Positions 577 to 36,479 of a DNA stretch of 64,000 nt are shown one piece after another. Position numbers and translations under genes: made by a program. The notes below the pieces were generated by a model. The model saw nothing but the letters and a program-made list of their open reading frames with translations, did no database searches and had not been told where the DNA came from. Position 1 is the stretch's first letter; each line of letters starts with the position of its first letter. Origin of the DNA: Ewingella americana ATCC 33852 (GTDB taxonomy: Bacteria > Pseudomonadota > Gammaproteobacteria > Enterobacterales > Enterobacteriaceae). The stretch covers positions 1 to 64,000 of the forward strand of contig NZ_JMPJ01000069.1 in assembly GCF_000735345.1 (NCBI RefSeq), read 5' to 3'.

Positions 577-1404
577 TTACAAATAAGTCACCAGAGGCGT
601 TTTAAGTAACTGACGAATCAGCACCTGCTGATCGCTGCTCTGGAGCCACACGGCGTACAGAGGGCGAATAACAGGAGGAATTTCATGGTAAGGCGACAGC
701 TGAGGATACTCTTTTGCCCAGTGTGTCGGCAGATAGGCGCAGCCTCCGGTCGTTTCCAATAGCTGGCGAGTCAGATGTGCTGAGGTGGTTGTCAGAACAG
801 GTTCCTGCTCATTGGTCTGCATTTTGCTTTCTTGCTGGGTGAAATCTGCACCCCACTCCAAACGGACATACGGCGCATGTTCGGCCTTATCATGCTTGGC
901 TGAAGCGAAAAGACGTAACGAGAAATTACCTAGCAGCTGGCTGGAAAGCTCATCCATCTTGGGGGGTTCTGTTGTGATGAGGAGATCTAGCTGTCTTTCA
1001 TGCAGTTGCTTAACCAGCGAGTGTCGAAGTGCCACGCGCGCTTCGAGGCGCAATGCTTCACGCTGAGTGTAAAGAGATTGCAACCAAGGGGTTAGATAGG
1101 CTTCCCAGAGCGAAGCCGTGGCCCCGATAGACAATTCTGTGTGCTGTAGAGAGCGTACAACCTCTTTTTTAGCCATTTGCCAGGTCGACATGAGGTTTTC
1201 AGCGTAGGGAAGCAAACGCTCGCCAGCGGGCGTTAAGCGAATGTTATTGCGGTGGCGGGTGAATAAATTTGCCCCAAGCTGGGTCTCCAGTTGGCGGATG
1301 CGAAAACTGACTGCTGATTGCGTCAAATAGAGTGATTCAGCGGCTCTACCAAAGTGGCGCGTTCTACTAACCTCCAAAAAGGTTTTCAGTAATTCCGTAT
1401 CCAA
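577..1404 (-). CDS. hdfR: HdfR, LysR-type transcriptional regulator
   Basis: This 275-residue LysR-family regulator has an N-terminal winged helix-turn-helix (residues about 3-60, including [20 protein letters not shown]) and a C-terminal effector-binding domain. In E. coli, HdfR represses flhDC, the flagellar master operon; the same role here is inference. I chose the TTG start at 1404 because it gives the family N-terminus (M)[11 protein letters not shown] and has GGAG six bases upstream. A TTG at 1416 would add four residues and has no such site. The gene is divergent from maoP, as in E. coli, and the 118-bp gap probably carries both promoters. The C-terminal half has diverged more from E. 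coli than the DNA-binding half. Confidence 0.9.
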
Positions 1405-5032: not shown

Positions 5033-5093
5033 TTTGATTAACTATTTTTGAGTTAATGGTAAGCAGGCTAAAGGTAATAACCTAAGAAAAGTG

Positions 5094-5121
5094 TTGTCAT
5101 ATCACACCTGACTGTGATAAC
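5094..5121 (+). promoter_or_regulatory. ilv operon promoter region with perfect inverted repeat
   Basis: TTGTCA (5094-5099) and GATAAC (5116-5121), 16 bp apart, form a plausible promoter about 40 nt before ilvL. Between and overlapping these elements is a perfect inverted repeat, ATCACA-CCTGAC-TGTGAT (5101-5118). A protein bound there would cover the polymerase site. No known regulator is assigned. The half-sites are inverted relative to the CRP consensus, so CRP is not claimed. Confidence 0.45.
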
Positions 5122-5163
5122 TCTGTAGGCAATCGTTCGTAAGAAGAATTTAAGAAACCAAAA

Positions 5164-5265
5164 ATGAAAGCCCTTCTCCTAGTAGTTAGCCTAGTCGTGA
5201 TTAGCGTGGTGGTGATTATTATCCCACCGTGCGGGGCTGCACTTGGACGAAGAAAGGCTTATTAA
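5164..5265 (+). CDS. ilvL: IlvL, ilv operon leader peptide
   Basis: The 33-residue peptide MKALLLVVSLVVISVVVIII continues to PPCGAALGRRKAY and is nearly identical to the E. coli ilvGMEDA leader peptide. It is packed with leucine, valine and isoleucine codons, so ribosome stalling when any charged branched-chain tRNA is scarce would favour an antiterminator over the terminator at 5286. It is too short for ordinary gene finding. The terminator begins 20 nt after the stop codon, the classical attenuator layout. Confidence 0.95.
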   Translation: MKALLLVVSLVVISVVVIIIPPCGAALGRRKAY

Positions 5266-5285
5266 ACAAGCCTGAACCTGAAAAG

Positions 5286-5318
5286 AACCCCGCACCGAAA
5301 GGTCCGGGGTTTTTTTTT
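5286..5318 (+). terminator. ilv attenuator terminator
   Basis: The stem AACCCCGCACC/GGTCCGGGGTT (one C-C mismatch, GAAA loop) is followed by eight or more T residues. It lies between ilvL and ilvX and is the attenuator that responds to IlvL translation, as known for ilvGMEDA in enteric bacteria. Confidence 0.93.
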
Positions 5319-5349
5319 GGCCAGAGCAAAATTGAGGCGAGAATAGAAA

Positions 5350-5400
5350 ATGAGCAACAGCATAAAATTCTGCGCAGAACCTAAAAAGGCAGGAGAATAA
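5350..5400 (+). CDS. ilvX: IlvX, 16-residue peptide upstream of ilvG
   Basis: A 16-codon [19 protein letters not shown], sits between the attenuator and ilvG. It has the same position and length as E. coli IlvX and shares the start pattern of Met-x-Asn-Ser, a variable residue, then Lys-Phe-Cys. The ilvG ribosome binding site (AGGAG at 5391-5395) lies inside its last codons and its stop is two bases before the ilvG ATG, so the two are probably translationally coupled. No biochemical function is established that I know of. Confidence 0.75.
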
Positions 5401-19962: not shown

Positions 19963-20080
19963 AGTGTGGTAGAATATCAGCTAACTATTGCTTTACGAAA
20001 GCGTATCCGGTGAAATAAAGTCAACCTAATGTTGGTTAATGCTACATCAACAAGGTAAAGATAATCCTTTGGAGTAGAAC

Positions 20081-20407
20081 ATGAGCGATAAAATTATTCA
20101 CCTGACCGATGACAGTTTCGACAATGATGTATTGAAGGCCGCGGCGCCGGTTCTGGTCGACTTCTGGGCTGAATGGTGTGGTCCTTGTAAAATGATCGCT
20201 CCGATTCTGGATGAGATTGCCACTGAGTTCGAAGGCAAACTGACCATCGCGAAGCTGAATATCGATGAAAACCCAGGTACAGCACCTAAATACGGCATCC
20301 GTGGTATTCCTACGCTGCTGTTATTTAAAGACGGTGAAGTCGCTGCAACTAAGGTTGGCGCACTGTCTAAAAGTCAGTTGAAAGAATTCCTGACTGCAAA
20401 TCTGTAA
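20081..20407 (+). CDS. trxA: thioredoxin 1
   Basis: The 108-residue cytoplasmic dithiol oxidoreductase has active site WCGPCK with Cys33 and Cys36, and the cis-Pro loop GIPTLLLF. It reduces ribonucleotide reductase, PAPS reductase and methionine sulfoxide reductases and is a T7 polymerase processivity factor in E. coli. It is one residue shorter than the E. coli protein. GGAG lies eight bases upstream of the ATG. It precedes rho, as in E. coli. Confidence 0.97.
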
Positions 20408-33564: not shown

Positions 33565-34959
33565 ATGGCAAGTAACGAGGAAAAAGGTGGTCTACACCGA
33601 GGGCTAGAAGCCCGTCATATAGAGCTGATTGCCTTGGGCGGGACAATCGGCGTGGGTCTGTTCATGGGGGCGGCAAGTACGCTGAAATGGGCCGGGCCTT
33701 CGGTTTTACTGGCTTATATTCTGGCCGGGGTGTTCGTGTTCTTCATCATGCGCGCCATGGGCGAAATGCTGCATCTCGAGCCGGTCGCCGGTTCCTTTGC
33801 GGTTTATGCGCATAAGTATCTCGGGCCTTACTATGGCTACCTGACCGCGTGGAGCTACTGGTTCATGTGGATAGCCGTGGGTATCTCGGAGATCACGGCG
33901 ATTGGTGTCTATGCGCAATACTGGTTCCCGGACTTGCCTCAGTGGATACCAGCGATTGCTGCCGTGGCTATTGTTGCTGCGGCCAATCTAGCGGCGGTGA
34001 AGCTTTACGGCGAGTTTGAGTTCTGGTTCGCGCTGATCAAAATCACCACCATCATTGTGATGATCGTGGTGGGGCTGGCGGTGATTTTCTTTGGCTTCGG
34101 CAACCACGGTCAGCCTATTGGCTTTGGCAACCTGACGGCGCACGGCGGCTTCTTTGCCGGTGGCTGGAAAGGCTTCCTGTTCGCCCTCTGTATCGTGGTG
34201 GCGTCCTATCAGGGCGTCGAGTTGGTGGGTATCACCGCCGGTGAAGCCAAGAACCCGCAGGTGACGCTAAAGCGCGCTATCAATAACATCCTGTGGCGTA
34301 TCCTGATTTTCTACGTCGGCGCGATCTTCGTCATCATCACTATCTTCCCGTGGAATGAGATGGGCACTCACGGCAGCCCGTTCGTGCTGACCTTCGCCAA
34401 AATCGGTATCACGGCGGCGGCGGGGATTATTAACTTTGTGGTGCTGACGGCGGCGCTGTCGGGCTGTAACAGCGGCATGTACAGCTGCGGTCGCATGCTC
34501 TACGCGCTGTCGCAGAATCGCCAAGTCCCGGCATTCTTAGGCAAAGTGTCGAAAAGCGGCGTGCCGGTGTACGGCATCACCGTGTCTATCGCGGTATTGG
34601 TGGTGGGTTCATGCCTGAACTACGTCATCCCGAACCCGGAGAAGGTGTTCGTGTATGTCTACAGCGCCAGCGTGCTGCCGGGCATGGTGCCGTGGTTTGT
34701 GGTGTTGGTCAGCCAGCTGCGTTTTCGCGAGGCGCATAAAGAGAAGCTGAAAGACCATCCGTTTAAATCGGTGCTGTTCCCTTACGTCAACTATCTGACG
34801 CTGGCATTCTTGGCCTGCGTGCTGGTCGGAATGGCGATAAACCCTGATACGCGCGTATCTTTGCTGGTAGGCGGTATTTTCATCGCGGCGATCAGCTTGA
34901 TATACTTTGGGCTGGGGATGCACAAGCGGGCATCTCTGACCACTGAAAGCGTAAAATAA
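33565..34959 (+). CDS. thrP: ThrP (YifK), threonine/serine:H+ permease
   Basis: The 464-residue amino acid transporter of the APC superfamily (AAT family) has twelve hydrophobic segments. The N-terminal [20 protein letters not shown] consensus of this family is present, and the sequence is close to E. coli YifK/ThrP throughout, including [20 protein letters not shown]. In enterics the transporter imports threonine and serine. Position between wecG and the argX tRNA operon is the same as in E. coli. AGGATTT upstream of the ATG is the likely ribosome binding site. Confidence 0.92.
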
Positions 34960-35052
34960 CGTCGTAAGTCATGGGTGGGGAAGGTAAGACGCCTACTTTT
35001 AATGCGTATTGGACAAAGAGCAATCAAACGCAACTTTTCCAATAAAAAGCAC

Positions 35053-35081
35053 TAGACAGGGTGGCATTAAAACCGTAGTAT
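35053..35081 (+). promoter_or_regulatory. promoter of the argX-hisR-leuT-proM tRNA operon
   Basis: TAGACA (35053-35058) and TAGTAT (35076-35081) are separated by 17 bp and followed by the GC-rich discriminator CCCCACCCGC. Such discriminators are typical of stable RNA promoters under stringent control. The first tRNA begins 22 bp downstream. Confidence 0.75.
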
Positions 35082-35102
35082 CCCCACCCGCAACGGCGCT
35101 AA

Positions 35103-35179
<77 letters not shown>

Positions 35180-35249
35180 TTAAGTTTGCGCTAGAGTTGC
35201 GGTGGTACTGTTTGAGGTTAAACAGTTCACGTGTGGAAGAGTTTGAAAT

Positions 35250-35326
35250 GGTGGCTATAGCTCAGTTGGTAGAGCCCTGGATTGTGATTCCAGTTGTCGT
35301 GGGTTCGAGTCCCATTAGCCACCCCA
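35250..35326 (+). tRNA. hisR: tRNA-His (anticodon GTG)
   Basis: The 77-nt gene includes the extra 5' G (G-1) characteristic of tRNA-His, at 35250. The anticodon loop is ATTGTGATT with anticodon GTG, the T-loop is GTTCGAGTC and the 3' end CCCCA encodes CCA. It is second in the operon. Confidence 0.97.
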
Positions 35327-35357
35327 AATTTTTTAAATGATTTTGTGAATGTGACAT

Positions 35358-35443
35358 GCGATGGTGGCGGAATTGGTAGACGCGCTAGCTTCAGGTGTTA
35401 GTGTCCTTAGGATGTGAGGGTTCGAGTCCCTCCCTTCGCACCA
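35358..35443 (+). tRNA. leuT: tRNA-Leu (anticodon CAG)
   Basis: An 86-nt class II tRNA with a long variable arm (TGTCCTTAGGATGTG region). The anticodon is CAG in CTTCAGGTG and CCA is encoded. The acceptor 5' strand GCGATGG and 3' strand CCTTCGC give a U-U mismatch at pair 5-68; E. coli leuT has a different mismatch (A-C) at that pair, so an unpaired 5-68 position seems tolerated. It is third in the operon. Confidence 0.95.
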
Positions 35444-35502
35444 CACACAAAATGCATTTAAATGATGCTGTTAGCATTAAAAAGTAGTAAGATGCACGAC
35501 AT

Positions 35503-35579
35503 CGGCGAGTAGCGCAGCTTGGTAGCGCAACTGGTTTGGGACCAGTGGGTCGGAGGTTCGAATCCTCTCTCGCCGACCA
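35503..35579 (+). tRNA. proM: tRNA-Pro (anticodon TGG)
   Basis: The 77-nt cloverleaf has acceptor CGGCGAG/CTCGCCG, anticodon TGG in TTTGGGA, T-loop GTTCGAATC and encoded CCA. It reads CCA and other proline codons. It is the last tRNA of the operon. Its final 19 nt (AATCCTCTCTCGCCGACCA) are repeated twice more downstream, each copy followed by a copy of the terminator. Confidence 0.97.
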
Positions 35580-35586
35580 ATTTAAG

Positions 35587-35614
35587 AAACCTGCTTTTAA
35601 AGCAGGTTTTTTTT
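35587..35614 (+). terminator. terminator 1 after tRNA-Pro
   Basis: The stem AAACCTGCTTT/AAAGCAGGTTT is followed by eight T residues. It should end most transcripts of the tRNA operon before the repeated copies downstream. Confidence 0.9.
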
Positions 35615-35748
35615 CGTCTGAAGTTTATGAGGATAAGAACCTCCGAAGGAGGTTTGAGCCGAGCGAAGCGAGACCACGTTGCTTTAGCAACGGCCCGCAG
35701 GGCAAGCATCGAAGATGCGCGTAATCCTCTCTCGCCGACCAATTTAAG

Positions 35749-35777
35749 AAACCTGCTTTCAAAAGCAGGTTTTTTTT
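35749..35777 (+). terminator. terminator 2 in the tRNA-Pro repeat array
   Basis: This is the second copy of the same terminator, with loop region CTTTCAAAAG instead of CTTTTAAAG, which is a small length change in the loop while stem and T run are kept. Confidence 0.85.
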
Positions 35778-35911
35778 CGTCTGAAGTTTATGAGGATGAG
35801 AACCTCCGAAGGAGGTTTGAGCCGAGCGCAGCGAGACCACGTTGCTTTAGCAACGGCCCGCAGGGCAAGCATCGCAGATGCGCGTAATCCTCTCTCGCCG
35901 ACCAATTTAAG

Positions 35912-35940
35912 AAACCTGCTTTTTAAAGCAGGTTTTTTTT
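35912..35940 (+). terminator. terminator 3 in the tRNA-Pro repeat array
   Basis: Third copy of the terminator with loop CTTTTTAAAG and an eight-base T run. After it the repeat ends within GTCTGGAGTTTATG. Confidence 0.85.
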
Positions 35941-36018
35941 CGTCTGGAGTTTATGTATTTGCCTCTTTGCCCCTCTTTCTAACCCCTGTCGCCGCTAGAC
36001 AACATCACCCTTTCTCTC

Positions 36019-36036
36019 TGTCGCTATCCGGTGACA
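36019..36036. promoter_or_regulatory. candidate GlrR (YfhA) activator site 1 for glmZ
   Basis: TGTCGCTATCCGGTGACA exactly matches the reported GlrR target TGTC-N10-GACA. It is centred about 240 bp upstream of the glmZ start, a usual distance for enhancer-type activation of sigma-54 promoters. Confidence 0.7.
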
Positions 36037-36081
36037 CTTAATCTATTGAAATACTTTAATTTATATCCCGACTGAGAAGGG

Positions 36082-36099
36082 TGTCGTTTGCCAGCAACA
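36082..36099. promoter_or_regulatory. candidate GlrR activator site 2 for glmZ
   Basis: TGTCGTTTGCCAGCAACA matches TGTC-N10-GACA with one change (AACA for GACA). It lies 63 bp from site 1, which is six helical turns, so both sites face the same side of the DNA. The AT-rich stretch at 36170-36210 between it and the promoter would suit an IHF bend, but no clear IHF consensus was found. Confidence 0.6.
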
Positions 36100-36238
36100 C
36101 TTATTTCATTTAAGTCGGGGATTGGCTTAGGGGGAAGTTCAGCGCGCAAAGGCGTGAGAAAATTCATCTCTTATAAATTCATTTAAAATCAAAAAGATAA
36201 ATATATATTGAGTCAATTGGAGATGATTTTTAGAATTG

Positions 36239-36254
36239 TGGCACGCTATCTGCA
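36239..36254 (+). promoter_or_regulatory. sigma-54 promoter of glmZ
   Basis: TGGCACGCTATCTGCA has the GG (36240-36241) and GC (36252-36253) doublets ten bases apart that define -24/-12 promoters. The distance to the expected start of GlmZ at 36266 is right (13 nt from the GC). No well-spaced sigma-70 promoter overlaps it. GlrR-activated sigma-54 control of glmZ is known in Yersinia, whereas E. coli glmZ uses sigma-70. Confidence 0.8.
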
Positions 36255-36265
36255 ATAATTACTGC

Positions 36266-36479
36266 GTAGATGCTCATTCCACCTCCTATGTTTGCCTTAG
36301 GGCTTCATAAAACTGGGAATGACGCAGAGCCACTTTATAGTGCCTATTGTCTATCTGACCGATAAGCGCCTCTCATCAGGCATTTATCAACCAGCAGGCA
36401 AATCGTTGAGTGAGGCACTCCCCTGTTGTCTTAGACCTGATTGTTTTATGCACTTGCCACTCGGCAAGTGTTTTTTTTT
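36266..36479 (+). ncRNA. glmZ: GlmZ small RNA
   Basis: The RNA starts GTAGATGCTCATTCCACCTC, nearly identical to the 5' end of E. coli GlmZ, and keeps GAATGACGCAGAGCC, CGTTGAGTGAGGCAC and the late TTGTCTTAGACCTGATTG block that corresponds to the glmS-pairing and RNase E processing region. It ends in the hairpin CACTTGCC/GGCAAGTG (36451-36470) and nine T residues, about 214 nt in all; E. coli GlmZ is about 207 nt. GlmZ with Hfq activates glmS translation and is degraded through RapZ when GlcN6P is abundant; GlmY acts as decoy. It lies next to the end of hemY, as in E. coli, and is convergent with it. Confidence 0.92.

Follow-up and report, generated by a model that had tools for sequence, protein, structure and literature searches.

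The window (the whole 64-kb stretch of DNA analysed here) carries an Arg-His-Leu-Pro tRNA cluster that is closed by a tRNA-Pro(TGG) gene in the proM position. The last 19 nt of this gene, AATCCTCTCTCGCCGACCA, occur exactly at 35561, 35723, and 35886, the first of these sites being the 3' end of the gene itself as delimited by ARAGORN. The exact search thus bears out the initial annotation, which had described three copies spaced by 162 and 163 nt. No fourth site was found in the window with up to two mismatches, and none occurred in 100 shuffles. The repeat unit is 163 nt long, its copies are 97% identical, and the array is made of the following elements:

35503..35579 (+): tRNA-Pro(TGG) gene, proM position, donor of the repeated 3' end (ARAGORN; Rfam tRNA)
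35584..35614 (+): intrinsic terminator 1 (hairpin and T8), in the gap between the tRNA and unit 1 (sequence; fold -14.8 kcal/mol)
35613..35741 (+): RtT unit 1 (RF00391, 79.3 bits, cut-off 45)
35629..35646 (+): inverted copy of the T-arm in unit 1, complementary at 89% to the T-arm of the tRNA (35550-35567)
35658..35722 (+): hairpin core of unit 1, 65 nt, within a split T-arm (GGTTTGA^core^AATCC)
35723..35741 (+): unit 1 tail, identical to the 19 nt that end tRNA-Pro, CCA included
35746..35777 (+): terminator 2, 3' of tail 1 (sequence; fold -15.3 kcal/mol)
35776..35904 (+): RtT unit 2 (RF00391, 80.2 bits)
35792..35809 (+): inverted T-arm copy of unit 2 (inverted repeat)
35821..35885 (+): hairpin core of unit 2, 65 nt
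35886..35904 (+): unit 2 tail, identical to the 19 nt that end tRNA-Pro
35909..35940 (+): terminator 3, 3' of tail 2, end of the array (sequence; fold -15.3 kcal/mol)

Every 19-mer is followed by the same kind of hairpin and T8, as had been proposed, and both the sequence and the folds agree on this point. A standard terminator scan of positions 34950-36300 reported none of them, whereas our own test and the folds do find them; the scan probably missed them by extending the A/T-flanked stem into the T run.

Tandem repeats are often misassembled, which might make the array an assembly artefact. We find this scarcely credible because the copies differ in sequence and spacing and because similar arrays are present in independent assemblies. 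The ends of tRNA genes raise another option. Since tRNA 3' ends are common integrase targets, the duplicated tail might be the scar of a mobile element that integrated and excised there, an alternative put forward in the initial annotation. The neighbourhood lends it no support: the seven proteins flanking the array (WzyE, WecG, ThrP, HemY, HemX, HemD, and HemC) are housekeeping proteins, none of them is an integrase, and the thrP side matches E. coli. The repeat also carries a family core that is common to several tRNA isotypes, and we regard such a scar as highly improbable. Elsewhere in the window, Rfam models match a Rev39_5p_UTR of soft rot Enterobacteriaceae (5089-5387, 189.4 bits; the genome here probably belongs to the genus Ewingella), a TrxA thermometer (20023-20110, 105.8 bits), and the sRNA GlmZ (36266-36477, 158 bits).

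RtT units behind tRNA genes

Both spacers belong to Rfam RF00391 (RtT), a family already described. They cover the full model (positions 1-130) at scores far above its cut-off, so the likeness to rtT repeats that had been noted from the letters was right and stronger than claimed. The genome of the window (G000) has seven RtT matches, of which five are above the cut-off: the two window units and those behind a tRNA-Tyr gene (L001), a second tRNA-Pro(TGG) gene (L002), and a tRNA-Lys cluster (L005). The search behind other tRNA genes suggested by the initial annotation was therefore fruitful at Tyr, at the second Pro, and at Lys. The two matches below the cut-off lie at contig edges, one with an Arg-type tRNA end (L006) and one dispersed (L007).

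We then counted RtT matches at increasing taxonomic distance, with the window's own genome included at each level and stricter filters beyond the genus. They are present in 6 of 6 genomes of the genus, in 68 of 119 of the family (66 above the cut-off), and in 51 of 274 at the level of the class (19 above the cut-off). Of nine class-level loci examined, seven repeat the end of the local tRNA (Tyr, Ser, or Gln), one does not, and one has no tRNA in the sequence covered. RtT was found behind Tyr, Pro, Lys, and Arg tRNAs in 58 genomes and in E. coli K-12. Among the 309 deduplicated units whose locus DNA was examined across the family, 282 have a tRNA upstream on the same strand, and none of the remaining 27 has tRNAs on the opposite strand only. 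RtT is not special to the proM of the window. One locus of another kind is L010, in which an RtT with a tRNA-Tyr tail (1501-1630) has no ARAGORN tRNA within the 3.1 kb examined; its upstream flank resembles the tRNA-Tyr locus L001, as if the tRNA gene had been lost and the repeat kept.

The best-known relatives are in E. coli K-12. In MG1655, proM has a terminator and no RtT, and the statement that the array is not a feature of E. coli proM holds for this strain. An RtT sRNA is already annotated behind the tRNA-Pro gene between eptB and dppA, which we take to be proK. A profile search of K-12 recovered four units at tyrT/tyrV, one near-full and four short units in the lys operon, three short units in the arg cluster, and one full and one partial unit at the tRNA-Pro between eptB and dppA. 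Most of the short units (arg cluster, L227; lys cluster, L228) match only the later part of the profile, and they are without annotation in the stretches of NC_000913.3 that were read. The copied CCA coincides exactly with the end of the annotated rttR (1287066-1287236). The window array shares with rttR/tyrT the covariance model, the place behind a tRNA, the tail of the local tRNA, and the tandem units, but it differs from it in lying behind tRNA-Pro and in having a terminator inside each unit. The array between eptB and dppA is also a tRNA-Pro followed by RtT with a tRNA-Pro tail; it belongs, however, to another tRNA-Pro gene and has one full unit and a partial match.

To characterise the tails, we used 218 deduplicated units from whole-genome loci, leaving out those picked by the tRNA-Pro pattern; 183 of them, from 58 genomes, have a complete 3' end and a tRNA upstream. 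Compared with the final 19 nt of the closest tRNA upstream, 152 of these 183 units agree at 17 or more of 19 positions (74 exactly), 15 at 15-16 positions, and 16 at fewer than 15 (12 Tyr, 2 Lys, and 2 Pro). None of the 183 has a tail that matches the tRNA end of another amino acid at 17 or more positions. Hence, the tail follows the local tRNA across genomes. The inverted T-arm provides a weak test of the same association: it fits its own tRNA better in 62 of 90 Tyr units and 14 of 49 Lys units, is tied in 110 of 115 Pro units and better in none (counts that include loci chosen by the tRNA-Pro repeat pattern), and fits worse in all five Arg units.

Copy number and structure of the units

The array varies between close relatives. 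Within the genus, the number of units at proM is two in G000, one in G001 and G002, and zero in G003, G004, and G005, and the second tRNA-Pro locus has one unit in G000, one in G001, and four in G002. A single-copy tRNA end in all close relatives, which the initial annotation had named as the pattern of a strain-specific duplication, is thus not what the genus shows, as G001 and G002 have a unit. In the 30 proM loci that were the best matches among the 99 genomes searched (own genome included), copies of the tail with at most three mismatches number zero in 23, one in four, two in two, and three in one. The two-copy loci include the window, and one copy of the three-copy locus belongs to a full tRNA copy. 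A further 79 named loci had been chosen for a repeat; 63 of them could be counted (16 could not), with one copy in 52, two in ten, and four in one. For the tyrT region of E. coli, we surveyed 60 evenly spaced records out of the 5391 matching it. Annotated RtT units number none in 8 records, one in 21, two in 7, three in 8, four in 14, five in 1, and six in 1, and inspection of two regions with none and of the one with six agreed with the annotation. Copy number is unstable, ranging from 0 to 2 at proM in the genus and from 0 to 6 among annotated units at E. coli tyrT. Two further observations concern this region: 32 of the 20053 places matching the E. coli tyrT-RtT region are on plasmid records, and at the tyrT locus of E. 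coli NZ_AP022064.1 (L345), with one tRNA-Tyr and no RtT, desaturase genes directly behind the tRNA replace narI.

Core identity averages 97% behind one tRNA gene, 89% within a genome between different genes that serve the same amino acid (54 pairs, namely 30 Lys, 21 Tyr, and 3 Pro, many of the Lys and Tyr genes being in one operon), and 72% for the same isotype in other genomes. A single position of 65 separates each window core from that of the second tRNA-Pro locus. Across amino acids, the identity within a genome is 0.671, compared with 0.646 when genomes are shuffled (21 of 1000 shuffles as high), in a comparison that sorted pairs by locus, which may split an array, and not by tRNA gene as in the preceding one. 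As this excess is small, movement between tRNA types must be rare. The array most likely grew, and is kept uniform, by exchanges between the repeated tRNA ends (unequal recombination and gene conversion), in which the second tRNA-Pro locus probably takes part as well.

The anatomy of the unit is made of tRNA pieces around a core. It starts with a terminator, followed by an inverted T-arm, a split T-arm containing the 65-nt multi-hairpin core, and the 3' end of the neighbouring tRNA. More precisely, an 18-nt segment 5' of the core is 89% complementary to the T-arm of the tRNA, and then come a direct GGTTYGA, the core, and AATCC...CCA. We tested covariation on a structure comprising a closing stem, the T-arm-derived hairpin, a tandem G.A hairpin, and three further hairpins, using 74 units hand-picked from 103 selected ones (29 were omitted: 25 Lys, 3 Pro, and 1 Tyr) and shuffles that ignore relatedness. 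In this mixed set, 89.3% of the cells pair, and 200 cells show changes on both sides (shuffle mean 62; no slid version above 44). The 14 pairs with changes on both sides are not above the slid versions (9-14), whereas the cells and the score are. The 20 tRNA-Pro(TGG) units alone gave 27 both-side cells (shuffle 7.6; slid at most 10) and 10 both-side pairs (slid 2-7). The tandem G.A positions are GA/GA in 67 of 74 rows, and a tandem GA motif in RtT is mentioned in PMC7657543. RNAalifold alone gives a weak consensus (-4.16 kcal/mol), and one window unit folds modestly better than shuffles (z -1.51). The hairpins covary, as expected of an RtT structure, within the limits of this hand-picked set and its shuffles. 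In three loci (L088, L105, and L159), the tandem G.A hairpin appears by eye to be replaced in place by a different Watson-Crick hairpin.

Terminators and expected transcription

We searched the whole-genome loci for intrinsic terminators, defined as six consecutive T following a hairpin that folds at -6 kcal/mol or lower. Between the tRNA and unit 1, such a terminator is present in 19 of 23 proline loci, 7 of 37 Lys loci, and none of the Tyr (0/55) or Arg (0/5) loci; the Tyr loci differ in this from the window. The same test found none within 90 nt 3' of the last unit of the Tyr loci (0/55). Because the terminator precedes unit 1, any transcription or RNA role of most proline units needs read-through. 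Little RNA is expected at proM, where the unit would be rarely transcribed and would be a dispensable repeat without a function particular to proM. At the Tyr, Arg, and most Lys loci, which have no intervening terminator, the unit is expected to be transcribed and cut out as rtT RNA during tRNA processing.

These results bear on the proposal that the array makes a functional rtT RNA, i.e., that read-through transcripts are cut at the copied CCA into decoys or sponges of about 160 nt or tune the stringent response. The structure covaries in the proline units too, the annotated small RNA rttR of E. coli has its end at the copied CCA, and PMC4986893 describes northern signals for RtT RNAs in A. 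pleuropneumoniae, where they are placed upstream of tRNA genes; the same paper cites the older tyrT work on rtT RNA and the stringent response. The decoy or sponge idea is nevertheless weakened at proM because unit 1 starts after an intrinsic terminator. Moreover, 23 of the 30 best-matching proM loci have no copy of the tail, and 8 of the 60 sampled E. coli records have no annotated tyrT unit. We therefore consider a functional RNA at proM unlikely. Still, the covariation of hairpins at proline loci as well suggests that an RNA or DNA structure is under selection, something that a dispensable repeat would not need.

The terminators themselves could be the point of the array, if the units were modules for termination and 3' processing that provide tRNA operons with back-up terminators and trimming signals. 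Termination would be intrinsic at Pro and Rho-dependent at Tyr, the latter being the mode reported for tyrT in older work. Each proline unit of the window has its own terminator, and the lack of intrinsic terminators on either side of the Tyr units (0/55 before, 0/55 after) leaves room for another mode. However, 23 of the 30 best-matching proM loci manage without the array, and such a module leaves unexplained both the conserved core and its copies away from tRNA genes. We give this explanation a small chance.

RtT cores outside tRNA loci

The most unexpected result lies outside the window, at two orthologous sites away from tRNA genes where the RtT core is present in one genome and precisely missing from another. 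The genus contains a dispersed non-tRNA repeat, with 49 matches in the window's own genome, that includes the site GGCTCGA^A. Among 68 loci of this repeat, 44 distinct sites are empty, six (all in G001) contain the core, and ten lack the anchor, in a count that leaves out the copies of G005 (slightly different left junction) and the contig-edge locus L268 (G000). For the seven dispersed cores from G000 and G001, agreement with the RtT-Tyr core in the same two genomes is 58-60 of 62 positions, compared with 49-52 of 67 for Pro cores and 45-47 of 65-70 for Lys cores; three cores from G005 match that RtT-Tyr core at only 52-54 of 62. At L216 of G001, the core is present (1001-1082, minus strand), and the corresponding flanks at G000:C29:14440 are contiguous (94% and 89%) without those 62 nt. 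The comparison of L031 with L274 of G000 has the same precise core gap, beside other small indels. A core of 62-63 nt present in the sister genome G001 is thus precisely absent from G000 at both sites, and no target duplication is visible in the alignments of empty and occupied sites. For a third locus, L217, the counterparts of the flanks in the window's own genome fall on different contigs, which leaves no site to compare.

Cores are also found within tRNA genes. In G002, a tRNA-Lys gene (L212, 1394-1528, minus strand) has an RtT core in its T-loop, in an operon with four intact tRNA-Lys genes, and its 5' part is identical to a neighbour at 54 of 57 positions. More degenerate cases are L026 (Lys) and L052 and L061 (Tyr), with L054 identified by eye. 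The comparison with relatives suggests that the hairpin core can appear or disappear as a precise small insertion. The tRNA-core chimera may also result from exchange between a tRNA and an RtT through the short shared T-arm, and the occupied dispersed sites could have been spread by gene conversion, perhaps after a single insertion.

We searched for what could move the core. Among the five genomes searched, the Y1 transposase (PF01797) has one match each in G002, G003, and G005 and none in G000 or G001, and it was rejected on that ground; the lack of a candidate mobilising enzyme in these two genomes counts against a mobile core. Carriage by phages was rejected as well, since the sole exact core match among viral contigs reads as a partial unit behind tRNA-Lys; it adjoins two tRNA-Val genes, like a lys operon of a host. 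A 64-amino-acid ORF beside the dispersed core of L268 has no Pfam match at E<=1, and in six dispersed-repeat loci the sole Rfam family to appear is RtT, at L268 and L216. The dispersed repeat might be an Ash/Icd or c4 module. Copies of this repeat family, which includes L007 and L268 (1-200), are often accompanied by a further partial match in inverted orientation and by a terminator-like hairpin, and a few of them hold the core.

Small structured cassettes inside genes are also known from another host, as the Rickettsia palindromic elements, to which the core can be likened by description. REP/BIME and IS200/IS605-type palindromic elements are, like the core, small hairpin DNAs in several copies with no visible target duplication. 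They differ from it at the foot of the palindrome, where GTAG is the most frequent tetranucleotide in REP-type elements according to PMC8266576: the core has no GTAG foot, its boundaries being, by eye, TCGA^GCCGAG...GAGT^A. It also differs from them in its T-loop-like target (TCGA^A) and in the absence of PF01797 from G000 and G001.

A tentative and still rather doubtful proposal is that the RtT core is mobile, a hairpin cassette of some 62-65 nt inserting without target duplication at T-loop-like TCGA^A. It would enter tRNA genes, whose remains become RtT units with local tails, and the dispersed non-tRNA repeat. For the window, whose array consists of two tandem RtT units, we favour as reasonably probable that the repeat grew by recombination, that it is dispensable at proM, and that its core is an insertion cassette; past entry of this cassette into the T-loop of a copied tRNA would account for a tail that matches the tRNA. 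RtT behind tRNA-Pro is already known from E. coli K-12, and the new element is the proposed mobility of the core, of which our literature search, reaching few subscription papers, found no report.

The gain for the window itself is modest: the correct name, and a warning that RtT behind tRNA-Pro usually sits downstream of a terminator. More broadly, a family studied mostly at E. coli tyrT acquires an origin that can be tested, as a hairpin cassette in a split T-arm, with a tail from the local tRNA, unstable copy number, and precise presence or absence at orthologous non-tRNA sites in sister genomes. Should the mobile reading be true, a family listed as cis-regulatory would in origin be an insertion element directed at the T-loops of tRNAs, and one could then ask what the cassette targets and which enzyme moves it.
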